Of a DNA stretch of 64,000 bases, positions 1,378-64,000 are shown one piece after another. Made by a program: the position numbers and the translations under genes. The number at the start of each line of letters is the position of its first letter. Position 1 is the first letter of the stretch. The notes under the pieces are model-generated. The model worked only from the letters and a program-made list of their open reading frames with translations, made no database searches and was not told where the DNA came from. Source of the DNA: Juglans regia (taxonomy: Eukaryota; Streptophyta; Magnoliopsida; Fagales; Juglandaceae); contig NC_049904.1 of assembly GCF_001411555.2 (NCBI RefSeq), forward strand, positions 27,231,370 to 27,295,369. The letters run 5' to 3'.

Positions 1378-2410
1378 TTAAAAAAAGATTAAAAAAAAGG
1401 TCCAAAATCTGATTCCGCTCTGACAAGTCGAAGTCGGAGGTTGGCCATTCCAACTCTGATCCGGGTAGTGCTCAACCCTAACCCTATTCGCCACCCCTAT
1501 AGGCAATGGAAATAAAGATAAAAAATAGGTCGGAAGATTAGATAAAGTGCTCGTGATCACTGTGAGCCACCCCTTTCGATAGATACAGCCATTTCCACCC
1601 AACTAACTTCTCTCCACGTTCTCAATAACCCTGTCGTAAATAGCTCTAGCTTTAAAAGTTGTCCCAATAGGATGCCCCAATATTTCATAGGCAGAAAAGA
1701 TACTTTACAACCCAAGAGATCTACTAGGCTATTGATTCTAGTCACCACACCCACCACCATCATCTTAGATTTACCAAGGTTTACCTTAAACCTCGACACG
1801 GCTTCGAAACATAAAATGAGTGCTCATAAAGCTTGAATTTAGCCCAAATCCGCTTCACAAAAGAGAAATCTATCATCTGTAAATAAAAGATGTGAGATCA
1901 TGATAGATCCATTAGTACCATTATCCACCGAAAATCTTGCTAAAAAACTACCATCAACAGCTGCCTTCACCATCCTGCCAAGTGTCTCCATAACAATAAC
2001 AAAAAGAAATGGAGACAACGGGTCTCATTGCCACAATCCGCGAGAACTGTTAAAGAAACCTGCAGGGGTGCCATTAACTAACATTGAGAAGCGAGTGGTA
2101 GTAACACAATGTCGAATTTATGAAATCAACCTATCACTAAAACCACACCTCCTAAGTAAGTAAAAGAGAAAATCTTAATTCACATGATCATATACTTTCT
2201 CCATATCAAACTTGCATAGAATACTTGGTATTCCTTTCTTCAACCTATGATCCAAGCACTTATTGGCTATAAGAACTGAGTCAAGTATCTCCGAACAAAA
2301 GCATTATGAGGTTTTGGAATAATTTGCTCCATTACCAAGTTTAATCGATTAGCAAGAATTTTCGAAATAATTTTATAAACTCCACTCATCATGCTTATAG
2401 GAAAAAAATC
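1378..2410 (-). mobile_element. LINE (non-LTR retrotransposon) reverse transcriptase fragment
   Basis: Read on the minus strand from about 2,410 down, the translation follows the plant L1-type reverse transcriptase in order. It starts with a segment like SGVYKIISKILANRL and then has a decayed LDMEKAYDHVNW-like segment. Next come PLSPLLFVIVMETLGRMV and an SHLLFADD-type catalytic loop, here changed to LLFTDD. It ends with the segment around KVNLGKSKM and the [17 protein letters not shown] segment typical of the RT C-terminus. Several stops and frameshifts break it into three or four frames. No endonuclease, RNase H or poly(A) tail is attached, so it is an internal fragment of a dead element. 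Confidence 0.85.
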
Positions 2411-2437
2411 AAAATTAATGAAAAAGAAAAATGATCG

Positions 2438-2751
2438 TTCGATATATCATATAAGTCTTTCCATGCAGGTTGATGGATTTGAACAGGATAAGAAAGTGGT
2501 TGTTATTGCGGCAACAAATTGAAAGCAAGACCTCGATCCTGCTTTAATTAGGTTAGTTGGAGCACATTTTCCCCTTGTAGTTGACAAGTGTACCGAGATC
2601 TGTCTAGAATATGTTTTAACTTTTGTTTTATCTATGTTATTTCAGTCGCTTTGATTCAATGATTACTTTTGGCTTACATGATCGGCAAAATCGTCAGGAA
2701 ATAGCTGCTCAGTTTGCAAAGCACCTAACAAAAAGTGGATTAGAAGAATTT
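2438..2751 (+). pseudogene. Duplicated fragment of the AAA ATPase gene (exons 11-12 with intron)
   Basis: This stretch matches 8,338-8,650 nearly base for base. It covers the end of intron 10, exon 11, the whole of intron 11 and most of exon 12. Because the intron is kept, it is a DNA-level copy and not a retrocopy. It has decayed: the sensor-1 arginine codon CGA is TGA (stop), and LPD reads LHD, among other changes. It stops abruptly inside exon 12 and is followed by a 31-bp repeat of its own intron. Confidence 0.95.
2581..2611. repeat. 31-bp exact direct repeat, first copy
   Basis: Identical to 2,750-2,780. The second copy sits exactly at the broken end of the duplicated AAA fragment. It carries ACCGAG as in this duplicate, not ACTGAG as in the parent intron at 8,480, so it was copied from here. 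Confidence 0.9.
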
Positions 2752-2780
2752 GACAAGTGTACCGAGATCTGTCTAGAATA
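2750..2780. repeat. 31-bp exact direct repeat, second copy (filler-like)
   Basis: Exact copy of 2,581-2,611 joined to the truncated exon 12 of the duplicate. This is the pattern expected of templated filler DNA at a repaired break. Confidence 0.85.
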
Positions 2781-3160
2781 AATTCAATGTATAGTGCAGA
2801 AGAAATGTTGTTATAAATAAGTAATTTTATTATTCATTAACTCCAAATATCATATTTTATTTTTATTTTTATTTTTATTTTTTATTTTTTTTATTTTTAA
2901 ATTAATTAATTTTCTTTACTCATCGTTCATAAACAAAAATTTAAAAAATTATATATAATTTGCGGTATGATAATAATGAGCAATTGTTGTAAGTTAAAAG
3001 GCATAGAGGGTGTGTACACAATACTTAAAGTGTGAACACGGCTTAGACCTCGTGTTCACCGACTGACCCACCCAGCGGTGCCTCCCGCGCCACGATCCCG
3101 CACTCATAAACAGGGAGACGAAGAGAGAGAGATCAATATTACCAGAACTCATAAGCATCC
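2781..3160 (+). promoter_or_regulatory. Upstream and 5' leader region of the AAA ATPase gene
   Basis: AT-rich to about 2,960, then a GC-richer part (3,040-3,110) just before the ATG at 3,161. No convincing TATA box was found. The region must hold the promoter because the LINE and pseudogene debris begins directly upstream. Confidence 0.45.
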
Positions 3161-6100
3161 ATGGCGGTTTTGGGGCGTCTTGTGAGAATGGCTCGGGCAT
3201 GGCGTGCTGTTGCCTCACCGAAAAACGTAACCCATCGAAGTCCTTGTTCGCCTGTCCTTCCTCGCCGCTTTTACCACCGTGCGCTTCCCTCCCTCTTCAC
3301 CTCGATCATTTTTGTTGATTTTTTTTTTTTTTAACTTATGTTTATAATTTTCGTTATCCGTGTGATTTTAACGCCCATTTTGTGTTTGAAATTGTATTTA
3401 AAAAATTGCATCTTTTGTTTTTTCGTTTCGAATTGGTTATGCAAGAAGCCGGTTGTGCCACTTGACTCTGTCACACTCACACTTGTAGATCACACTGAGT
3501 TTCTACTAGATATGGTGGCTTTGCGTATTTTTATACACTTGAAAGTGTTATAGGTTCAGTTAAAGTAATGTTCAAATTTTTTCACATTGTCTTAATTCTC
3601 TCTGCTTTTATTGAATAAGATGCTGATTATTGTTATATAATTGGTAATTTTATAATTAGTAGCGAAATATGTAGGGTCTGCTGAGCACCAGAGTCATTCT
3701 AATGCATCTGAAGTTCTACCACACAGATCGGCACCTGATGCTTGGAGACCGTATTCTATATTTCCAGCCATTTTGGCTGGTTTGTTTGGAGTTGGAGTGC
3801 TAGACATGGCTTACTCAGATGGTGATGAGGTTTGTGTAAATTAATTTCTTTTCATGTGTTTCCTTTGTTGGTAATAAGACATCAACAGCAAAAATGTTCC
3901 CTCGATCTATCATTTTCATTTAAAAAAAAAAAAGCAACTAGTGCTGCACGAATTCCCCGTTTGTATGTGTGTGTGTGTGTTTTTGCGTGAGTTTCTTGAC
4001 ACTTGTGCACTCCACGAGTACTTTCTATGTTGAAGCTGCATTTTTTGAATTGATTTACTGTGAACTTAGCTTTCTCCAGGTTCCTGCCAAACCTCCTTTG
4101 CCATCAGAATCTTCTCCAGGGCATGTGGACTTGGAGGAAATTGCCAAGAGAGAAAGACAGCGGATTGAAGAGTTGCTTAGAAGTAAAGGAATGCAACATG
4201 GTTATTATCCCCGCTTTACTGTTGCCGTTAAGGGCCAACAGGTTGTTGCATTTACTCCTATAGAATATTAGGGCTTTAAGTGTGGGTTATCTAACGCTGT
4301 CTGTTTAATACTACTTGTAAACTCATTTAGCTGTAAGCGTTTATATTTCTTTAATCTTGGGGAACATAAAATATTACTAATGTCGAAGGAAAAACTTAGT
4401 TAAAAAAGGAATTCTTCTACTCCCACTATATCATGAGATGCAAAATTCTTATCTTGGAGTCATATCATGGCAAAGCCATCTTAAATTGCTTCTCTAAGAT
4501 TACTTATAAAAAAAAACTGCTTCTCTAAGATGACCACTTTCTTTGAGATCATCTCTTATCCCTTCAACTTTGTATCTAGTTAATTGTTGGAAGTGAAGTC
4601 TTTGGTAAAATTTATATGAGGTTGAAATACATTCTCTTTAATTGCAAAGTAAGTCTTGACATGGTTTCTTTTCAAGTAAAATAGCAAGAAAAGCTGTTGG
4701 CAGATTTTATGCGTTTGATATAGATTTTTTTTCAATTTTAACTCAAGTTTAAATGGCAGAAATCATCTATGAGAGAGTTTTTTCCTTTTGTGTAAAATCC
4801 ATAATATGGAAGTATTTCAAGATATATTTAACATAAGCATATGTTGCATTATAGGTCACCATCAAATTCCAAGTCCCTCCTGCTTGTGAAGTTTCTCAAA
4901 TGATTGCAAACCTTGTTTCACATCTTGGAGTGAGAGTTGAAGACCGTGGTGGTGGTTCAGATATGTCATTGCGTGTTTGGGACAGGTGAGTTAGCATTAA
5001 GTGTCCTTCAGTTTTCTTTTTGCCCTTATTAATTGTGAGCTTTGGCCCTATGTCGCAGTCAATTAAATGATTGTATCTGTGTTTAAGTCATGGGCATTAG
5101 TTGAAGTGTATTAAATAATGTTTTCTGGTGACTGATTTATTGCAGTGCAGTTGCTTGGCAACTAACACTTACTCATCCAGAGAAAAAGATGGAAATTAAA
5201 GGGAATGTGGGGGATTCAAAAGATATAAATTCACATGATGGAGATCTATGCATCCTCATATTTCATTCGCTCATTAGCTCAGAAAAAGCTGTTAGTAGTC
5301 ATCTTTCTAGCTGATGAAACCATTATTCTACGACGTTTCTATCTCTGCTTTCTAGCATTTCTTATATATCACAAATAAAAAAAAAATAGTCAATTATGAG
5401 AAATTCTTAGTGGTTAGCATAACTTGCAGGAAATTGAATTCATGAAGAAAGGGAGCTTGAGCCCCAAAGAGCTAGATGCTTTGGTATCTGTTTTAGAATT
5501 AGCTGGTGGAAAGTTGAAACAAAATAAGACCTTAGAAAGAAAACCCAGGGAAGGTAATGCAATGGTGCCGTCTGCAGAAAAATCAGTTGCTAGTCTTGAG
5601 TCCATGGGAATTAGAATATATGGACTCAATGAAGCCCGTGGTTACTCCTCAAACAGTGAGATATCATGGGACACTATTGCTGGATACAATCAGCAAAAAA
5701 GGTATGCGAGGACTTGGGTGTGTTGCATTCATTGTTGTTACTTTTTTATTCAAAATTTGTACCCTATTCTGTTTGTAACAGGCAATGAAAACTTGAAGCA
5801 CTATAATCATAATGATGTAGGATCTCATGGCCCATGTTTAAGAATATGCAACCAGTAACAAACATATTCAGTTATTTGCTTTTTTAAGAATTATTTTTCT
5901 TCTAACAATTTGAAGTAGATTATGGCTGCTGATTCACATAATGAATTATATAGATAGCAATGTGATGTAGAAGTTTAAATGAGACAAGAGGTAGAGCAGA
6001 ATATTAAGAGAATAGAGAAGAGAAAAGAACGAGAGAGGAGGGAGGGAGGAGAAGAAGACAATCGGGACTGAAGGGGGCGGCTAGCGCATCAGTTTTTCCA

Positions 6101-36830: not shown

Positions 36831-39057
36831 GCCAATTTTTTTTCTTTACTTTTTTTTTTAATTACAATTATCTTGAAAAGTTATATTAAATTTTTTTTAA
36901 TTTTAAAATAAAAATTATGTTTTAACAATATATTAACTTTATAATTTTTTTACTTATTTTTTTTTTTATCATTTTCTAAAATTTCATAAAATATATTAAT
37001 TCAAATCGTTTTACTGACTAAAGCCCTAGTTGATTGTTTGGAACTTAAAAAATGAATAAAAGGAAAATCAAACGTGTTTTTTGGAGAGTAAAATCAAACA
37101 CTAAGATTACTTATTATCTTAAATCCGTAGTTTTTAGTCTCATTTGCTTCTTTAAAAGATCATATTTGAAATGTGGTCATATTAATATGATTAAAAATAT
37201 TTTATTTATTTTTTCTAAAACATAGATAATGAGAACAGGGCTCGGTCTTGGTTTGACCGAAGTTTGCTGATCACAACAGTATCTTGAAGTTGCATGCAAA
37301 GTTTGATCTACATATCTCACAAATATAGGAAAATGGTAGTATGATTATCAAATATTACCAAATATGTCAGGTCATATATTTTTATTTTATTTTTTAAATT
37401 TTTTTAAATAATTAAGAAAGTAACTATTAGTGAATTTATATATTTTTTTTTTCTTAATAGTTAAGAAAGTTTAAAAAATGTTTTAAGGAAAAAAAAAATC
37501 ATTTGTACTAACACATTTGATGGTTACATTTTGTAGCCACCCTAACATTTTACTCATTTTATTTTCTAAAACAATCAGATTGACAATTAAAATAATATTT
37601 TGTATTAAATGAACATATAGCAAAATAAATATTATCTAATTTTGACACTTTGATTATTTTTAGATCATTTTTATTTAAAAAATAATAAAAAATTAATGGA
37701 CAATATCTACTTGTTATAATGAAATAAAAAAGTGGTAAGTATAATTTTTCACACATTCAACATTTAAAGCAGAAGGTTGTCACATTAATTATTAATTGAC
37801 TTCGACGTACGTACTTACGTACAATAGTTGTTGCCGGATTTCGACAAATGTTTGCCACATTTATTGATTTTCACGGACAACAGTGGTTGCCGGATTTCCA
37901 ATAGATACGAACTAATTTGAGTAATAATATTTTCCCCAAAAAAAAAAAAATTTAATAAAATTAAAAGATATAGATTTATACGTACGGCATCAGCATGCAT
38001 GCATGCAGTGAATTTTGTGCGAAATGTGAGAATTGTTGCAAATGGAAATATTTGATCTGATCAGTCTCATGATGTGGTCGATCATGATGAGGAATCATAT
38101 GTAAACTAATAATGCATGAAATTTACTTATATATTCGCTAACTTCTATATATATATAATATAATTGCATTGATCAAAGCTTAATATAACCCGCGGCTCAC
38201 GCACACTTTCCATAATTAATTCCCCATTTATGTTAAAAGAAGATATTTGATTGATTTTTGTTAATTTCATAAAGAAATATTATATAATTAAGCAAGTTTA
38301 TAAATTAATATACTTTCTTATGGTATATTATTTTTTTTGTATAAATTAAATTTAACGTATAATATAATTTTTATAGCGTCATATATATAACAAAAATAAA
38401 TATTAATAAAAGAGGAATTTAATGATCATTTAGTTAATTATACCATTATAATAATAAGTAAATATTTTAATTCTTTTCACATATACCGGAATCAATACTG
38501 TTGTAATATTAGAAGGGCCGACGAGGACTCCACTGACGAGCAATGAGAAGTAACATTTTCATATAAAAAATGATTCAATCGTGTTTGTTCAATTGAAGAC
38601 CAAAGTAGGTGTGCCCATCTAATTGGCAAACAAAATGATTTACTTTAAAAGGGTATTTACTTTCCACTAATATATATAACTTTATTGGAAGGGGATTCAA
38701 GCACCACTATGAGGCAATATCTAATCTTGTTATTGTATATGACTGGACTATGATCTCAATTACGAGCGATATCATCCATCATCTCACTTATTTTAAAGAA
38801 TAAGAAGTTAGGAAAATACATCGTTTATTGAATTGATGCGTACACGATTTGACGTAATGGGCAACGACGATACAAGCTTACGACAATATCCCTTTAATCC
38901 AAATTCCCCCCTTCTCTACTGTCCTTTCATAATAGAAAAGATCCACCTCTATATTATTAAGTTTTGTTTAGACAGTTTATAATGTATTAGTTTTGTAGTT
39001 TCATATATAAAATAGTAGTTTTCTTGCGGAAAAAAAACTATATATATATATATAACT
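36831..39057. other. AT-rich non-coding DNA
   Basis: Long A/T runs and no coding pattern. (GCAT)n-type words occur at 37,990-38,007 and TA repeats at 38,146-38,161 and 39,041-39,053. The copia element is inserted right after the last TA repeat. Confidence 0.6.
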
Positions 39058-39214
39058 TGTTGACCGATTCTTTCTCATGAAGACGTTTGTGAGTGGGAGT
39101 CTATCATCTTAAGAGTCCTTTAAGTGGTCAAACACTCCTCCATTCAATTTAAATTGATCCCATGAAAATAGGATCACGTGGGACACGTAAACCCGAAATT
39201 TGATGGGAATTTCG

Positions 39215-39224
39215 GCTATAAATA
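39215..39224 (+). promoter_or_regulatory. TATA box of the copia promoter
   Basis: CTATAAATAC in the LTR. A start some 30 bp downstream would make the AUG at 39,351 the first in the transcript. Confidence 0.75.
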
Positions 39225-39350
39225 CATGTGTTTGGTCCCCAAACTCACTCACTCAATTCCCTTCGGTAATACACCATCTAAATAGAGTAGAGAAGAGTTT
39301 GGAAGAGCCAAACACAGTGAAAACCGAAACTTTTTCAGTGAATTGCATCA

Positions 39351-39360
39351 ATGGCTGGAG
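39351..39360 (+). other. Predicted first coding exon of gag, inside the LTR
   Basis: ATGGCTGGAG followed by the strong donor GTAAGA at 39,361. These ten bases give three codons plus one base. A splice to 40,977 restores the gag frame exactly. Confidence 0.65.
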
Positions 39361-39444
39361 GTAAGATTTCTTGGCATTAAACCCTTTAATTCTCGTTTCT
39401 AAAGTGTTATTCCGCATTAGAGAATTTTATTTAAGTCTAACAGT

Positions 39445-39456
39445 TGGTATCAGAGC
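39445..39456 (+). promoter_or_regulatory. Primer-binding site of the copia element
   Basis: TGGTATCAGAGC two bases after the 5' LTR, complementary to the 3' end of initiator methionine tRNA, the usual primer of plant copia elements. Confidence 0.95.
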
Positions 39457-39693
39457 ATTAAAATCCTCTGTCTTGATGTTTAAATACAAAAACCCGAGTT
39501 CCTCTGTTTTTTGGCCGTGAATTGAAAATTTTTTTTGGGTTTTGATTTTGGACGTTTTTAATTTGAAAGAAGTTTAGAAATCATATAGAAATATTTTTTC
39601 TAAGCTTTCTGTGATTAAAAACATCATTTTTGACGTGAAAAAACACTGTAAAACGCGAAAATCGCGCTGCGTCTGGAGGTAGAAGACGACGCG

Positions 39694-40112
39694 AACGACA
39701 TGTCGTTTTCAGGCTTGTTGAAAACGACATGTCGTTTTGGCAGCTTATGTTTCATTCGGTTCTGCTAAACGACAGGTCGTTTTCAACTTTGATGAAAACG
39801 ACATGTCGTTTAGCATTAGGTTCTCTACTCCCGTATACCGCTAAACGACACGTCGTTTTCAATTTAATGAAAACGACATGTCGTTTTACTTCGAAGGCCG
39901 TTCAAGTGTAATGACAAAAACGACACGTCGTTTTTCAATTGATGAAAACGACATGTCGTTTTATTCGGTAGTCGTTTATCAAGCCTGAAGGTAAACGACA
40001 TGTCGTTTTGAGTTTCAGTAAAACGACATGTCGTTTAGAGGCTGTCTGTGTTTTAAGAAATGGGCAAAACGACACGTCGTTTTTTCATTCTAGAAAAACG
40101 ACATGTCGTTTA
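39694..40112. repeat. Array of 12 palindromes AACGACAYGTCGTT in six pairs
   Basis: Palindromes start at 39,694, 39,721, 39,767, 39,795, 39,843, 39,870, 39,916, 39,945, 39,993, 40,020, 40,066 and 40,094. Within a pair they are 27-29 bp apart, and pairs start every 73-77 bp. Eight are perfect (ACATGT centre); the first of pairs 2, 3, 4 and 6 has a changed centre (ACAGGT once, ACACGT three times). The sequences between pairs are not alike, yet their lengths are. In RNA each palindrome can fold on itself or pair with another copy. Confidence 0.95.
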
Positions 40113-40976
40113 CTTGGTGCAAAAAAAAAAAAAAAAGTAAATTTTTTTTTTTCCCATTTTTAAATGGGTTGAATAGTGGGTTTTTGGGTTTATGCCCATT
40201 GTGCTTATAATTTTTTATTTTTATTTTTAATTATATGCATTGAGGATATTTGTTTATTATGCTCATATTTAGTTTGCATAAATTGATTAATTTTTGCTTT
40301 TTACATGCAATTTTTGATGAGTATATAATTTAGAGCATGGATTAAATGTTATGCATAATATTATAATCTAGATTGTGCAATATTTATGCTTATATTATGA
40401 ATCTTTTGTGCATAGTTATAACATGTGAGTATTAGTTAAAATTATGTAATTCATAATATTAAGCTAGTCTTATGCAATTTAAATGTCTAGTGATCCATAT
40501 AGTTTTATGTTAATTAGAGAATAGCCACAGCATCTTTAATTAAGTAAAATTATAATGATTGATTAGGATCACATAAGGAATATTAGACATTAATTGTAAT
40601 TAATTATACATAAATATAATAAATTTTATCCCACAGGAATTTTTATTATATTTATATTATTAATTAGGATAAAATATCAAGTTATTCATAAATTACCCAC
40701 AGGAATTATGAATGAAGTAAATAATTTGATAGTTTTATCATAAAAGTCTAAGATAGAATACACATGAAATTCATAATATATCCTTTAGAATTATGAATTA
40801 AGTAATAATATTGATAAAATTCTATCATATAGATTAATTGGATCTACTGGTATTAAAATTTAGCCCACAGGCAATTTTATGTCCTTAGATTCAATTTTTA
40901 GGCATGATTTACATTGGTAAAACATGAATATTTATTTAGGCCTCAATTTTAACATAAACATGTAATCTATATGCAG

Positions 40977-41512
40977 TTTCACAACCTACAAATTTCTCTG
41001 ATATTCGTTATGATATCCCTGAACTTAAGGGAGATAACTATAAGGTCTGGAAGGAGAGAATTCTTCTTCATTTAGGGTGGATGGATATAGATTATGCTAT
41101 TAGGAAAGACGAACCACCAGCTGTAACTGATACCAGTAATGCAGCAGACATCGCACTTTATGAGCGATGGGAGCGATCTAATCGCCTAAGCATGATGTTC
41201 ATTAAGACTAGAATATCAGCTGGTATTCGTGGTTCTGTCGATCAGCATGAAAAGGTCCGAGACTTGCTAAAAGCCATTGATGAACAATTTGTCACTTTAG
41301 ACAAGGCTCTAGCAAGCACCCTAATTATGAAGTTCTCATCCCTAAGACTCACCAGTGTGAAAGGTGTGCGTGAGCACATCATGCAAATGAGGGACAATGT
41401 GGCTCAATTGAAGAAACTCGAGGTTGAAATGTCGGAGTCCTTCCTAGTGCACTACATCCTGAACACACTCCCGCATCAATATGGACCCTTCAAAATCTCT
41501 TACAACACATAA
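40977..41512 (+). CDS. Copia gag (main exon)
   Basis: Open from the predicted acceptor at 40,977 to TAA at 41,510-41,512, about 178 codons. It contains the gag core of plant copia elements: an L-K-G-D-N-Y-K-V-W motif near the start, FIKTRISAGIRGSV, and a long helix with LKKLEVEMSESFLVHYIL and LPHQYGPFK. Without splicing only the AUG at 41,081 is available, which would remove the conserved N-terminal motif. Gag forms the element particle. Compared with relatives the frame stops too early: two bases seem to be missing at 41,505-41,510, and the sequence continues in the pol frame. Confidence 0.9.
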
Positions 41513-44500
41513 GGATAAATGGTCAATTAATGAACTCATGACCATGTGTGTTCAAGAGGAAGGGAGACTGATGATGGAACAGGGTGAAAGTGCAATGCTG
41601 GCAACGCATGGAAAGGGCAAAAATCAAGCCAAACTGAAGGGAAAAGGCAAAATACATCCGCAAGGTGGTATTAAGAAAGATTCCAAGTGTTTCTTCTGTA
41701 AAAAGAAGGGACACATGAAGAAGGAATGCGCCAAATTCCAGAAATGGCTTGCAGACAAAGGTAATTCGACCTCACTTGTTTGTTATGAATCTAATATGGT
41801 TAATGTCAATATTAACACATGGTGGATTGATTCTGGATCAACAATCCACATTTCGAATTCCTTGCAGGGTTTGCAAAACCTAAGGAAGCCAGTGGGAAGT
41901 GAGCGAAGCATCTTATCAGGAAACAAGATGGGCTCGCATGTGGAAGCTGTTGGAACTTGCTATTTAATTTTATCTAGTGGTTTTGTTTTAAAGTTGGAGA
42001 AGACCTTTTATGTTCCAAGTTTTTCTAGAAACTTGATTTCAGTTTCAAGACTAGTACCTTTTGAATATTCCTTTAATTTTTCAAATTCATCATTCAGTTT
42101 ATTTTATAAATCTGATTGTGTTGGGAATGGTACTTTGTCTGATGGTCTTTACTGCATTAATTTACAAAACAATACCACTTATGATTCAATGCATGTTCAC
42201 ACTGGCACTAAAAGATGTGTTATTAATGAGGATTCCTCTAAATTATGGCACCGGAGATTAGGCCATATCTCCCTAGATAGGATTAAAAGATTAGTAAATG
42301 AAGGGGTACTTAATACTCTAGATTTTTCTGATTTTGAGACTTGTGTGGACTGCATAAAGGGAAAGCAGACCAACAAGTCAAAGAAATGTGCCAATAGGAG
42401 TTCAGACATATTAGAGATCATACATACTGATATATGTAGTCCAGACATGGACTCATATGGTCAGAAATACTTCATCTCTTTTATAGATGATTACTCACGA
42501 TATATGTATCTCTACATGCTTCATAACAAGAACGAAGCATTAGATGCCTTTAAAATCTTTAAGGCTGAAGTAGAGAAACAATGCGGTAAACAAATTAAGA
42601 TCGTGAGATCAGATAGAGGTGGAGAATATTATGGTAGATACACTGAGAATGGACAAGCACCTGGGCCATTTGCAAAGTTTCTTCAAGAGCATGGGATTGT
42701 TGCCCAATACACCATGCCTGGTTCACCGGACCAGAATGGTGTAGCAGAAAGAAGAAACCGAACATTATTGGACATGGTGCGGAGTATGCTTAGCAGCTCC
42801 AATCTTCCTAAATCATTGTGGGCTGAAACACTTAAGACGGCAGTGTATATATTAAACCGAGTTCCAACCAAGGCTGTTTCTAAAACGCCATTTGAATTAT
42901 GGAAAGGTTGGAAACCGAGTTTGCGACATATGCGCGTTTGGGGATGCCCGTCTGAGGTGAGAATTTATAATCCACAAGAGAAGAAACTAGACCCAAGGAC
43001 CATTAGTGGGTATTTCATTGGATATGCTGAAAGGTCTAAAGGTTATAGATTTTATTGTCCATCTCACAGTACTAGGATTGTGGAATCAAGAAATGCAAAG
43101 TTTCTTGAGAATGACTTGATCAGTGGGAGCGATCAAACCAGGAACATAGTTCCTGAGAATGATCATTCAGAATCTCAACCTTCCACTTCAAGTGATAGAT
43201 TGGTTATTGTTTACAACACCCCTCAAGTACCAACTGGTGTTGAACTACCAATCATTGAAGTTCCACAAGTTGCTAACGACACTCTAGTAGATCAGGTAGT
43301 TCAAGAGTTGCCAACAACTTTTGAACAACCAGTTGAACCACATACTACTTCTCAGGAAGATGATGGTGCAACATTAAGAAGATCTGTTAGAGCAAGAAGA
43401 TCAGCAATTCCTAGTGATTATGTTGTGTATCTGCAAGAATCTGACTATAACATTGGAGCCGAAAATGATCCCGAATTATTTTCACAAGCCATGAGTTGCA
43501 AAGAATCAGAATTATGGTACAATGCCATGAAGGAAGAGATGAATTCCATGAAGAGTAACGAAGTCTGGGATCTTGTTGAGTTACCTAATGGTGTAAAAGC
43601 CATTGGATGTAAATGGGTCTTTAAAACCAAAAGAGACTCATTAGGCAACATTGAGAGATACAAGGCAAGACTCGTTGCTAAGGGATTCACTCAGAAAGAA
43701 GGAATCGATTACACGGAGACTTTCTCTCCCGTATCTAAGAAAGATTCCTTGCGTGTTATTTTGGCATTAGTAGCCCATTTTGATTTTGAATTGCAACAAA
43801 TGGATGTGAAAACAACATTTCTTAATGGAGATCTAGAGGAGGAGATTTACATGAAACAGCCTGAAGGATTCCCCTCTAGTGATGGTGAGCAATTGGTTTG
43901 CAAGCTTAAGAAATCCATATACGGTTTAAAACAAGCATCTCGCCAATGGTATTTGAAATTCCATAATGTAATTTCTTCATTCGGTTTTGTAGAAAACGTT
44001 ATGGATCAATGTATATACCAGAAGGTCAGTGGGAGTAAAATATGTTTTCTTGTTTTATATGTGGATGACATTTTGCTAGCAACCAATGATAAGGGTTTGC
44101 TGCATGAAGTGAAACAATTCCTCTCTAAAAATTTTGATATGAAGGATATGGGTGAGGCATCTTATGTCATTGGCATTAAGATCCATAGAGACAGATTTCG
44201 AGGCATCTTGGGTCTGTCTCAGGAAACCTATATTAATAAATTTTTGGAGAGATATCGGATGAAGGATTGTTCACCAAGTGTAGCTCCCATTGTGAAGGGT
44301 GATAGGTTCAATTTGAATCAATGCCCAAAGAACGACCTTGAAAGAGAACAAATGAAGAACATTCCATATGCTTCTGCTGTCGGAAGCCTAATGTATGCTC
44401 AGGTCTGTACAAGACCTGACATTGCATTTGCTGTGGGAATGTTAGGACGATATCAGAGTAATCCAGGTTTAGACCACTGGAGAGCTGCAAAGAAAGTAAT

Positions 44501-45038
44501 GAGGTACCTTCAAGGGACCAAAGAATACATGCTTATGTATAGACGAACGGACAATCTGGAAGTAATTGGCTACTCAGATTCTGACTTTGCTGGCTGTGTT
44601 GATTCACGCAAATCAACATCAGGATACATATTTTTGATGGCCGGTGGAGCTATATCATGGAGGAGTGCCAAGCAGACTTTGACTGCCACTTCTACTATGG
44701 AAGCCGAGTTCGTCTCTTGTTTTGAGGCCACTTCACATGGTGTATGGCTTAAGAGTTTCATTTCTGGGCTTAGAATTATGGATTCAATCTCTAGGCCATT
44801 GAGAATGTATTGCGACAATTCAGCTGCTGTTTTTATGGCTAAGAATAACAAAAGTGGGAGTCGGAGTAAACACATCGACATTAAATATTTAGCCATAAGG
44901 GAACGTGTTAAAGAAAATAAAGTGGTCATTGAGCACGTATGCACTGAACTAATGATCGCTGATCCTTTGACTAAGGGCATGCCACCGTTGAAATTCAAGG
45001 ATCATATAGGGAATATGGGACTTGGTTCCATTATGTAG
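41481..45038 (+). CDS. Copia pol polyprotein (nucleocapsid knuckle, protease, integrase, RT, RNase H)
   Basis: 1,185 codons without a stop, ending TAG at 45,036. In order: zinc knuckle CFFCKKKGHMKKEC (residues 70-83), aspartic protease DSGS (117-120), and integrase with HHCC (H257, H262, C288, C291). The DDE residues are D317 (HTDICSP), D378 (SDRGGEY) and E423 (GVAERRN). RT starts near residue 705 (KWVFKTK) and has its YVDD box at 860-863; RNase H is near 1,030 (SDSDFAGC). The order protease-integrase-RT-RNase H defines copia. All catalytic residues I can see are kept, so the enzyme part looks intact. It overlaps gag by 32 bp in another frame. Its own first ATG (41,481) is probably not a natural start. 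Confidence 0.95.
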   Translation: MDPSKSLTTHKDKWSINELMTMCVQEEGRLMMEQGESAMLATHGKGKNQAKLKGKGKIHPQGGIKKDSKCFFCKKKGHMKKECAKFQKWLADKGNSTSLVCYESNMVNVNINTWWIDSGSTIHISNSLQGLQNLRKPVGSERSILSGNKMGSHVEAVGTCYLILSSGFVLKLEKTFYVPSFSRNLISVSRLVPFEYSFNFSNSSFSLFYKSDCVGNGTLSDGLYCINLQNNTTYDSMHVHTGTKRCVINEDSSKLWHRRLGHISLDRIKRLVNEGVLNTLDFSDFETCVDCIKGKQTNKSKKCANRSSDILEIIHTDICSPDMDSYGQKYFISFIDDYSRYMYLYMLHNKNEALDAFKIFKAEVEKQCGKQIKIVRSDRGGEYYGRYTENGQAPGPFAKFLQEHGIVAQYTMPGSPDQNGVAERRNRTLLDMVRSMLSSSNLPKSLWAETLKTAVYILNRVPTKAVSKTPFELWKGWKPSLRHMRVWGCPSEVRIYNPQEKKLDPRTISGYFIGYAERSKGYRFYCPSHSTRIVESRNAKFLENDLISGSDQTRNIVPENDHSESQPSTSSDRLVIVYNTPQVPTGVELPIIEVPQVANDTLVDQVVQELPTTFEQPVEPHTTSQEDDGATLRRSVRARRSAIPSDYVVYLQESDYNIGAENDPELFSQAMSCKESELWYNAMKEEMNSMKSNEVWDLVELPNGVKAIGCKWVFKTKRDSLGNIERYKARLVAKGFTQKEGIDYTETFSPVSKKDSLRVILALVAHFDFELQQMDVKTTFLNGDLEEEIYMKQPEGFPSSDGEQLVCKLKKSIYGLKQASRQWYLKFHNVISSFGFVENVMDQCIYQKVSGSKICFLVLYVDDILLATNDKGLLHEVKQFLSKNFDMKDMGEASYVIGIKIHRDRFRGILGLSQETYINKFLERYRMKDCSPSVAPIVKGDRFNLNQCPKNDLEREQMKNIPYASAVGSLMYAQVCTRPDIAFAVGMLGRYQSNPGLDHWRAAKKVMRYLQGTKEYMLMYRRTDNLEVIGYSDSDFAGCVDSRKSTSGYIFLMAGGAISWRSAKQTLTATSTMEAEFVSCFEATSHGVWLKSFISGLRIMDSISRPLRMYCDNSAAVFMAKNNKSGSRSKHIDIKYLAIRERVKENKVVIEHVCTELMIADPLTKGMPPLKFKDHIGNMGLGSIM

Positions 45039-45324
45039 TTTTCCATTGTATGAACAATGTTATTTTTATGAAATTCTTAATCATTTTGATGATCTTTTCT
45101 CATATTAATGTGCACCTTAATTTATTTTTGAGAAAATTTATCTGTATTGGACCAAGAATAAACATAGGGTTTATTCATTAAGAGATTGTTCCCACATAAA
45201 TTGCAAAGAATGAATACATAGTAATACATGGAAGGTAATACTCGTCATTAGAGGACCTATCGCCATGATTCATGTATTTATTACTTAAATGAAGATTATT
45301 GATGGGTTTAAGATCAGGAGTTTT

Positions 45325-45339
45325 GATCAAGTGGGAGAA
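45325..45339 (+). promoter_or_regulatory. Polypurine tract of the copia element
   Basis: ATCAAGTGGGAGAA directly before the 3' LTR; AAGTGGGAGAA is the usual plant copia form. Confidence 0.85.
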
Positions 45340-45724
45340 TGTTGACCGATTCTTTCTCATGAAGACGTTTGTGAGTGGGAGTCTATCATCTTAAGAGTCC
45401 TTTAAGTGGTCAAACACTCCTCCATTCAATTTAAATTGATCCCATGAAAATAGGATCACGTGGGACACGTAAACCCGAAATTTGATGGGAATTTCAGCTA
45501 TAAATACATGTGTTTGGTCCCCAAACTCACTCACTCAATTCCCTTCGGTAATACACCATCTAAATAGAGTAGAGAAGAGTTTGGAAGAGCCAAACACAGT
45601 GAAAACCGAATCTTTTTCAGTGAATTGCATCAATGGCTGGAGGTAAGATTTCTTGGCATTAAACCCTTTAATTCTCGTTTCTAAAGTGTTATTCCGCATT
45701 AGAGAATTTTATTTAAGTCTAACA
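45340..45724 (+). repeat. 3' LTR of the copia element
   Basis: 385 bp, two differences from the 5' LTR, followed by the TAACT target duplication. Confidence 0.97.
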
Positions 45725-46151
45725 TAACTTTAATTTAAATTAATTTTTTTTTTTTTTAAGTCTAGTTTCAGTGTGATCTCTCTCCATAGTCCATACTCTA
45801 GTCTCTCTTGCCGAAACACCCACAACAAACCATCCTCTATTTTTTCTTTATGTTTTCACAGGAGTACTGGAGACTACTCTTGGCTTCTGCATCCTCGACC
45901 TCCCTTCCATATTTTTATATATATATTTTTTATTATTTTTTCTTCTACGTTAAATATTCGACCTCCCTTCCATATTTTTATATATAAATATTTAAAAATA
46001 ATTTTATCTCAAAATGAGATAAAATTATTTTTATATCAAAACGAGACCAGCACGCAGACTTCAAAGTGTTATTACGTGCATATCCGAAGAGTTATTAGTT
46101 GAAATGCACTAAAGATTTACTGACCTAAAAATCTCTAAGATCAAACAATAA
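45725..46151. other. Non-coding DNA right of the copia element
   Basis: A 28-bp direct repeat built on TCGACCTCCCTTCCATATTT at 45,896 and 45,958. No gene seen. Confidence 0.55.
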
Positions 46152-46350
46152 GGCTTCGTTTGGATTTTAAACTAATTTCAACTCATCTCAATTAATCATT
46201 ACAATTTTTTCAAATCTCAATACAAAATATAATAAACAATTCAACTTTTTCAAATCTCAAAATAATAATAATATTAAAAAATAATATTCTAATAATATTT
46301 TATCATCTCAACTCAACTCAACTCAACTCACTCTAACATCCAAACACAAC
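46152..46350. mobile_element. GTTTGG-family MITE
   Basis: GGCTTCGTTTGGATTTTAAA at the left, TCTAACATCCAAACACAACC at the right. Very similar to 36,625-36,830 and to the complement of 25,392-25,582. Confidence 0.85.
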
Positions 46351-46974
46351 CTAAATTCAACTTTGTACAACTCGCTACATGAGTATCCAGCATAGTAATA
46401 GATCATTATATCAAAATTCTCATTCAAGACTGTTGTATTAATTCGACTAAAATTGCAGGAAATAATAAATCGGTCTGAAAAATCTATTTTTGATATGTGA
46501 TGTGTTGGTTACAACCGGCAATTATCAACAATATATTCCACGTCATTTTCAAATAATATATATATTATATATATAACTTTGGCTCAGAGAAAACTGATCA
46601 TAAATTAGTAAAATGTAGATAAAATAAAATAAAACTTTGAAACTGATAGCAATGAGCCCCTGACACACTAATCATGAAAGGTTGAGATGGATGTAATAAA
46701 TAAATAAATAAATAACTTTGTGAACTTTATTTATGTTAAATTATTAGTAGTAGCATAATGTTTATATTCCCTCTCCATCAATCCCTTGTATTCAATCAAT
46801 CTACTGTTGATGGACACGACGTAAAGTGAATCAGGTCACCCACCCTCTTCTTCATACTTCAAACCAGTGACGTCTCTCATCAACTGTCTCCCCTTTGCTT
46901 TTGCTTTTTTTCTTACGCTGTTTCCATCATGGAATTGGACTCTCTCTCTCTCCTCTTGGTTTGGGACATAAGTG
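46351..46974. other. Non-coding stretch
   Basis: Nothing recognised; an (AAAT)n-type repeat lies at 46,695-46,714. Confidence 0.6.
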
Positions 46975-47182
46975 TACTTAGATTGGATTTTGATATTGAA
47001 ATGAGTTTAATTGAATTGAGTTAAGATGATAAAATATTGTTAGAATATTATTTTTTAATATTATTATTATTTTAGAATTTAAAAAAATTAAATTATTTAT
47101 TATATTTTATATTAGAATTTGAAAAAATTATAATGATAAATTGAGATGAGTTGAGAGATGTTTGTCATCCAAACGAAGCGTT
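46975..47182. mobile_element. GTTTGG-family MITE
   Basis: Contains the family run GATAAAATATTGTTAGAATA and the end GTTTGTCATCCAAACGAAGC. Confidence 0.8.
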
Positions 47183-47439
47183 ACACTTACCGGAGTTACA
47201 AAATAATTATAAAGGACTAAAATCTGGACACAAAAAGATCTAAAGATTTTAAACAATCGACAAATAATCTAGGATTACATATAAATCAACAATAAAGCAT
47301 ACCTATAAAAATATGAAAAATAACCTGCAAATAAACATTAGTTCACACCAAAAAGAAAATAATCTAAGAAAAACAGATGCAATTAAACAATTATCTTACT
47401 ATAAAATTTGCAAATAAGAAATTTTAATTCTGTTCATAC

Positions 47440-63429: not shown

Positions 63430-64000
63430 ACCGAGTGGTACATGTTGTGCAAAAAGACACACCAACGAGGACAAACTAAACTAAAAGCAAGCACGATGAA
63501 GCACATGACACACAATATACGTGGTTTGATAAATTGCCTTTGTCTACTGAACCGTAGAAATATTATTAACTAGAGGAGATTACAATCACTTAATCTCAAC
63601 TCACACTCTTTAGGACTGTTTGCTCTCTCACATAATATGCACTCACTTGACAATTATTCTCTCTCAAAATATGCCGAAAGTTGTACAAAACAAGTCAAAT
63701 ATAACATATTATAGCAAACGGCTATGGAAACCCTAATCTAGCAAAGATTATGTTTTTTGCTCGAGCGGTGTTGAGAGCGTGCATCGAGCGAACAACCAAT
63801 CAACATTGGCTCGAGTGGGACTTGAATGAATACTAGGGTTTGTGTCTCGCTCGAGCCCATTGTCGCGCGAGACTTGAGCAAACTCACGGGTTGAGTTTTG
63901 CTCGAGCCCATTGTCGAGCGCATCTTGAGCGAACTCACTGGTTGAGTTCTGCTCGAGCGCATGTTGAGCAAACTCTCCGTTTCTTAATTTTCAGCTCCAA
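63430..64000 (-). mobile_element. Retroelement-like insertion in intron 2 (cut by window edge)
   Basis: Contains ACGTGGTTTGATAAATTGCC and CTACTGAACCGTAG, words I know from plant LTR retrotransposons in a form like ACGTGGTTCGGTAAATTGCC. It is followed by a CTCGAG-rich tandem array. Neither end is certain, and the right part lies outside the window; strand is a guess. Confidence 0.4.
63799..63990. repeat. 51-bp tandem array of CTCGAG-rich units
   Basis: Units start at 63,850, 63,901 and 63,952 (exactly 51 bp apart), each CTCGAGC.CAT.GT.GCG then TTGAGC.AACTC then GGTTGAGTT. An older degenerate unit precedes them. It uses the same words as the array at 11,267-11,455. Confidence 0.85.

Follow-up and report, generated by a model that had tools for sequence, protein, structure and literature searches.

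What keeps a regular array of short palindromes in the leader of a plant retrotransposon? In a 64,000-nucleotide stretch of Juglans regia DNA, analysed at its full length and called here the window, a sequence-only reading had noticed twelve self-complementary words in six pairs and proposed that both the words and their spacing are under selection; RNA hairpins for genome dimerisation and packaging, a repeated protein-binding site and a hairpin source of small RNAs were suggested as roles. We compared the array with its relatives elsewhere in the genome and, among these three roles, the evidence leans towards a site that would be read by a protein.

Structure of the array

The array (39694..40110, forward strand) is formed by twelve AACGAC-NN-GTCGTT dyads in six pairs, that is, twelve copies of the word AACGACA(T/C/G)GTCGTT starting at 39694, 39723, 39768, 39797, 39844, 39872, 39919, 39947, 39994, 40022, 40068 and 40097. 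The word-to-word steps (29, 45, 29, 47, 28, 47, 28, 47, 28, 46 and 29 bp) alternate between two sizes, 28-29 bp within a pair and 45-47 bp between pairs, and the distance from pair to pair is 74-76 bp. The twelve palindromes in six pairs are thus present as first described, and these distances fall within the 27-29 and 73-77 bp given at that time. It also holds that the centre is changed in the first member of four pairs (words 3, 5, 7 and 11), the six second members being perfect.

When up to three mismatches were allowed, we counted 24 strand-matches in the window, corresponding to 12 places, every one inside the array, against 5.57 matches (sd 3.11, largest 16) in 100 shuffles. Within the window, dyads of the form AACGAC..GTCGTT are found in the leader only. 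Genome-wide (571 Mb), exact AACGACAYGTCGTT occurs 635 times on the forward and 660 times on the reverse strand, and the reversed control 40 and 39 times. The short within-pair spacers have TTCA...TGAA-like ends in common, and in the example at 39708..39722 (forward strand) these ends are complementary; the long between-pair spacers, for instance 39737..39767 (forward strand), show no excess constraint. A literature search for ACGACATGTCGT returned no paper, and the pair pattern had 0 matches in IMG/VR.

The element that carries the array

On the forward strand, two LTRs of 385 bp (TGTT...AACA) lie at 39058..39442 and 45340..45724, flanked by the target-site duplication TAACT at 39053..39057 and 45725..45729. 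The LTRs differ at 2 positions in 385, 39214 and 39329 only, and with this intact duplication the element is young. Directly behind the left LTR, at 39445..39456 (forward strand), we found a primer-binding site (PBS), TGGTATCAGAGC, which we take to be of the initiator-Met tRNA type and which has an identical location in 31 close copies. The pol reading frame (41463..45038 from stop to stop, forward strand) contains gag-pre-integrase, integrase and RVT_2 domains, and in a domain search the integrase precedes the reverse transcriptase (rve 318-422, RVT_2 699-945). By its domain order, two LTRs, target-site duplication and PBS, the element is a Ty1/copia LTR retrotransposon, and the copia leader proposed as the setting was right.

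A predicted second gag exon, V-SQPTNFSDIRYD..., extends over 40977..41512 (forward strand), its frame being closed by a stop at 41510-41512. In the window's copy gag and pol are in different frames, at a place where relatives (e.g. P0009) read through, and this copy is probably non-autonomous despite its near-identical LTRs. We found no further ORF of at least 200 aa between the LTRs.

The best protein matches of the reverse transcriptase region, which come from annotations of Fagus, Xanthoceras and Vitis, are 93-95% identical to it; this may reflect either horizontal transfer or strong constraint. Among metagenome proteins, P0014, P0016, P0024 and P0055, labelled 'transposase InsO family protein', resemble plant Copia polyproteins of the same family.

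The array and the PBS in a predicted leader intron

From the conservation of an ATG and from Fagus gene models, we predict a first gag exon within the LTR, ATGGCTGGAG (39351..39360, forward strand), encoding M-A-G. It would be followed by a leader intron, GTAAG...TGCAG (39361..40976, forward strand), with the donor ATGGCTGGAG/GTAAG inside the LTR and the acceptor TATATGCAG/TT ending at 40976. In the predicted join, exon 1 gives MAG and exon 2 gives VSQPTNFSDIRYD. The intron so predicted holds the PBS and the whole array, and consequently only unspliced RNA would carry them.

We surveyed the splice sites in 42 elements, 41 of which were aligned in each stretch. The LTR ATG is conserved in 40/40 aligned copies, the donor G in 39/40 and T in 40/40, the +5 G in only 27/40, and the acceptor A in 41/41 and G in 38/41. 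Exon 2 has no ATG before GWMDID, and 7 of the 14 relatives compared start at GWMDID. Of 187 relative proteins, 55 contain the stretch upstream of GWMDID; twelve of these have MAGVVQPANFSD, located at residue 1 in 11 and after 11 residues in one, and all twelve are models from Fagus sylvatica. One Silene model begins MAGAILPW, and the remaining 42/55 start or are joined otherwise. The Fagus gene models beginning MAGV match the predicted exon 1/exon 2 join. Without splicing, the LTR ATG opens 7-23 codons in 38/39 copies and 64 in one.

The element resembles BARE, a plant retrotransposon in which translation and replication use distinct RNAs and one of the classes is spliced (excerpt of PMC3735527), except that splicing is here a prediction. 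In BARE, according to the same excerpt, a 104-nt intron is spliced to give Gag alone (PMC3735527); the intron predicted in the window, in contrast, would remove the PBS and the array and join the LTR start codon to gag.

Arrays elsewhere in the genome

An exact-match listing spanned C1 together with the initial 22 Mb of C2, and all 16 clusters listed there were taken; 13 of them match the window's leader beyond the array, and three (L009, L013 and L018) do not. A search with the window's leader gave at least 134 candidates, of which 40 were scored, the best match of each having at least 92% identity. With a diverged leader (L017) as query, at least 139 candidates were obtained, of which 40 were scored, at places that partly overlap those of the window-leader search. 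We retained 62 distinct arrays, namely the window, 12 exact-match clusters, 29 window-leader places and 20 L017-leader places; L006 (a duplicate of L028) and L022 (the window itself) were left out.

Between 6 and 15 words were parsed per array, and exactly twelve in 34/62. Of the 648 steps in the 62 arrays, 339 measure 26-31 bp, 300 measure 44-51 bp and 9 have other lengths, a table biased to regularity as words were chained to a neighbour by 26-32 or 42-52 bp and isolated words were dropped; three doubtful words give steps of 16, 17 and 22 bp in L075, L081 and L078. The arm sequence is identical across all subfamilies seen, with no drift to other palindromes; the parser sought one word only, and 639 of the 648 steps are too short to hold an unseen word.

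In L008, the LTR and PBS stretch is found twice in tandem (434-975 and 985-1526) before a single array. When L007-L021 were compared with window positions 39058-41600, the pre-array leader was 20-36% different between subfamilies and the 600 bp behind the array 6-14%; L016 and L020 are 38-40% different behind the array, where they are probably not alignable, and L006 and L008 are closer copies. The contrast between leader and downstream sequence suggests either 5'-module exchange by recombination or a stronger constraint behind the array.

Selection on the palindrome arms

Proving selection on a non-coding array of a transposable element is hard; here the decayed copies provide a neutral yardstick in the same sequence, which reveals base by base what was retained. 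We used 31 close copies (the window, L023-L051 and L008, with L022 removed) and took singleton variants as mostly post-insertion decay and variants shared by at least two copies as mostly inherited from active parents.

We observed 28 singleton and 2 shared variants in the 144 columns of the arms, as against 22 and 21 in the 122 columns of the long-spacer core and 40 and 37 in the 250 columns of the pre-array leader (Fisher p = 1.0e-4 and 3.6e-5, respectively, to be read as guides since the copies are related). Per column, singletons are about as frequent in the arms as in the core (0.194 vs 0.180), whereas shared variants occur in the arms at roughly one-twelfth of the core's rate (0.014 vs 0.172). 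The centre has 2 singleton and 3 shared variants in 24 columns, the long-spacer flank 6 and 9 in 40, the short-spacer loop 8 and 5 in 39 and the region behind the array 90 and 43 in 854. From this last region, which is also poor in shared variants, the arms differ with p = 0.05 per column. A constraint on the short-spacer flank was considered and rejected, as its 48 columns have few shared variants (2) but few singletons too (3), and the ratio shows none.

Whole palindromes have 30 singleton and 5 shared variants, and their contrast with the sequence behind the array is weak (p = 0.04 for all columns, 0.23 for non-CpG columns). In non-CpG columns, singleton and shared variants number 12 and 2 in palindromes vs 34 and 33 in spacers (p = 0.019). 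In CpG columns, palindromes differ from the pre-array leader (p = 0.006) and show no contrast with spacers (p = 0.15). The two shared variants of the arms are G12-to-A changes at a CpG; each occurs in two copies, and they may be recurrent.

In pairwise comparisons among 38 arrays (703 pairs), the arms diverge by 0.105 at most where spacers reach 0.445. The arm/spacer ratio is 0.53, and not 1, in the closest pairs and 0.24 in the farthest; some close old pairs have equal rates (L017-L021, 6/109 and 9/170; L015-L016, 15/125 and 23/189). These data support the conclusion that the dyad arms were kept by selection while the element was active, the centre and the spacers being free. The selection on the palindromes that had been suspected is thus borne out, with post-insertion decay as an internal control, and the comparison of substitution rates proposed at that time, run on the 31 copies and the 703 pairs, gives an excess conservation in the palindrome arms.

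Origin and spacing of the array

The two other elements of the initial proposal did not stand. The spacers had been described as unlike each other, which was held against plain tandem duplication. The short spacers share their ends, and the likeness among long spacers exceeds that of shuffled ones in 11/11 arrays tested (identity 0.55-0.64 vs 0.53-0.56); the window's own are the weakest (0.55 vs 0.53, reached by 4/200 shuffles), the other ten arrays being matched by at most 1/200. In addition, orthologous spacers between elements are more alike than spacers within one array. Taken together, the two likenesses show that a 75-bp unit had already been multiplied when the subfamilies diverged, and by these comparisons the array is an old, degenerate tandem duplication of this unit whose spacers have since decayed.

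Selection on the spacing is unsupported. At 1.61 per 100 nt, shared indels are about as frequent in the spacers as in the adjoining leader (1.59), and the distance from PBS to array is equally constant (250-254 nt in 12 arrays). A spacing constraint was rejected, as the spacer indel rate equals that of the neighbouring leader.

Other carriers of the word

Of the three clusters that do not match the window's leader, L009 has a different Copia gag, with its best match to PF14244 and a weak one to PF14223, the family listed for the window's relatives. Upstream of this gag lie four words, at successive distances of 31, 31 and 42 bp. Compared as DNA, L009 and the window's element have no match outside the array, and the L009 spacers are not significantly like those of the family. 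The presence of the word among spacers not demonstrably related would favour a sequence-reading protein over mere base pairing, L009 being a single locus in which one 31-bp duplication could yield three of the four words.

L013 and L018 belong to another repeat family; over 386 bp of the sequence behind the array the two are 82% alike, and L013 has 3 words and L018 has 5. Their long spacers are family-like, and for this reason it seems that the array itself was moved there by recombination. L013 also contains a tandem repeat (2246-3205) whose unit is about 108 bp long.

A proposed site for a dimeric protein

Our first-ranked explanation, to which we give somewhat less than an even chance, is that the array is a cis-acting Ty1/copia module whose dyads are read by a sequence-specific dimeric protein, likely on DNA. 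We rank it first mainly because the word recurs in another lineage, at the single locus L009. Each dyad would offer two half-sites around a free 2-bp centre to the putative protein, and the repetition would provide many adjacent sites for it. Lying in the predicted leader intron about 250 bp behind the PBS, the module, of 6 to about 14 dyads and most often 12, would most likely act at the DNA level: downstream of the LTR promoter it would serve as an intronic platform for regulation or against silencing. Splicing of the leader intron would leave the Gag-Pol message without array and PBS.

The drift of the centre was followed in 452 dyads from 42 arrays. Exactly one of A7 and T8 is lost in 166 dyads and both in 1; among first members, T8 is lost in 144/226 and A7 in 2, and C11 to A, found in 14/226, touches the right half only. 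Such one-sided losses, which represent few independent events that many copies have inherited, agree better with a protein that reads half-sites than with a stem, since a stem needs both sides alike. The hairpin-like covariation of the inner flanks within pairs, given below, is unexpected for plain protein sites.

The proposed platform would be comparable, by analogy, to the target arrays of VANC and to the palindromic motifs of Sireviruses. VANDAL21 is a DNA transposon. Its arrays, bound by VANC21, consist of a motif multiplied by tandem repeats in introns and non-coding parts of the transposable element (excerpt of PMC5735166); likewise, the array is a short tandem-multiplied motif in intronic or non-coding sequence whose copy number differs between copies of the element. 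The VANDAL21 motif, YAGTATTAY, has one orientation and a known binder encoded by the transposable element (same excerpt of PMC5735166), whereas we saw no such binder in the window's element.

In Sireviruses, palindromic repeated motifs (RM), such as TTTTCGGACWTRTCCGAAAA in Osr9 and ACAATCGATTGT in Tnd-1, are found in LTRs and upstream of ENV, and the excerpted part of the source reports them absent from classic Copia (PMC2829016). The array is like these RM, present in 8-32 copies, in being a short CpG-bearing palindrome, some of them variable-centred, in non-coding parts of Copia; unlike them (as excerpted in PMC2829016), it sits in the leader behind the PBS, is paired and has two alternating spacings. 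Two Sirevirus features, a repeated LTR palindrome and multiple identical PPTs, are absent from the window's element: in this one element the LTR has four separate palindromic places (arms of at least 5), each single and none repeated, and we found a single GTGGGAGAA-like tract (45331), while no stretch of at least 8 purines occurs in 45039-45339. A literature search at the level of titles and abstract openings did not find an array of such kind in a Copia leader intron. Whatever reads the array, it offers a short, defined target for finding either a host factor exploited by plant retrotransposons or a signal by which a plant Copia element sorts its genomic RNA.

Possible pairing in the genomic RNA

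A possible but not a probable explanation is that the array acts in the unspliced genomic RNA, where pairs would fold as 18-20-bp hairpins and words would pair in trans for dimerisation and packaging near the PBS; splicing would strip this signal from the Gag-Pol mRNA. The location of the array between PBS and gag, inside the predicted intron, is consistent with it, and a single 18-nt palindrome has a predicted self-dimer energy of -24.0 kcal/mol. Ty1 dimerisation uses the palindromes PAL1 and PAL2 near the PBS (excerpt of PMC8396678), and, like them, the array consists of palindromes close to the PBS in the genomic RNA of a Ty1/copia element (PMC8396678; PMC5454406, both in excerpt). Yeast Ty1, as described there, has two named palindromes (PMC8396678; PMC5454406), whereas the window's element has twelve nearly identical words. 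Folding is strong (z -11.7), but strong folding is expected of any palindrome set, on both strands; we observed it on both strands in 9/9 arrays, and it is weaker with scrambled words, with a smaller drop in L010.

The inner flanks of the short spacers are complementary, with 3.09/4 Watson-Crick pairs in 57 distinct spacers vs 1.12-1.86 when slid. In 103 distinct spacers, a count that takes in related sequences, inner-flank pair 3 is Watson-Crick in 63 (38.5 expected, 0/2000 shuffles), with the base combinations CG 32, TA 29, TG 12, CA 10 and GT 6, and pair 4 in 55 (43.1 expected, 5/2000 shuffles); pairs 5 and 6 have no Watson-Crick excess. The outer flanks show no covariation and the long-spacer ends no clear one (best of six measures, 82/2000). 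The covariation of the inner flanks would support, short of proof, a hairpin within the pair, the distinct spacers not being independent.

Several observations argue against pairing. G-U combinations (18, 22.3 expected) are hardly favoured over A-C ones (11, 17.2 expected) in the 103 spacers; this asymmetry had been considered as a proof of RNA pairing at 13 vs 3 for pair 3 in 57 spacers, and was rejected as it faded to 18 vs 11. The check for compensatory changes, called for by the sequence-only reading, found none between the arms of a pair beyond shuffles (73 mismatches vs 72.8 shuffled), so that compensatory arm changes between pair members were rejected. The centre is mismatched in 144/226 first members. 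Self-complementarity gives 36 mismatches vs 39.6 shuffled (9/1000) in first members and 31 vs 33.2 (118/1000) in second members, an excess that we did not rely on because older copies decay at both CpGs.

An extension of this RNA explanation, which we consider doubtful, is that one splice would sort the RNAs: the spliced RNA would have the gag start without PBS and array, and the unspliced RNA, giving no Gag, would carry a multivalent module for dimerisation or condensation and packaging. If true, twelve nearly identical, evenly spaced self-complementary words would join genomic RNAs many-to-many, in a module present in genomic RNA only.

Improbable explanations: splicing control, small RNAs and minisatellite

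Improbable in our view is a control of splicing, in which the array would set the removal of the leader intron and hence the ratio of genomic RNA to mRNA. It agrees with the position of the array within the predicted intron, and this ratio would matter since unspliced RNA gives only 7-23 aa from the LTR ATG in 38/39 copies. That the array is a hairpin from which small RNAs arise, either tolerated by the element or exploited by the host for silencing, is very unlikely; hairpins are predicted, and palindromic-motif clusters of maize Sireviruses attract small RNAs (excerpt of PMC10760457, citing Bousios 2016), but such a role leaves the selection for words in active lineages unexplained. We likewise see scarcely any likelihood in a neutral minisatellite whose palindromes look conserved through gene conversion or slippage homogenisation, for which the variable number of parsed words and the tandem origin shown by faint spacer likeness can be cited, since the arms match the core in singletons and not in shared variants, and a homogenisation sparing words but not adjacent spacers is implausible.

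Other repeats in the window

Beside the element we observed an inverted repeat with 218-nt arms at 46149-46366 and 46966-47183, 82% complementary and 599 nt apart. A tandem repeat of 51 bp, in 2.5 copies, is found at 63849-63974 of the window.
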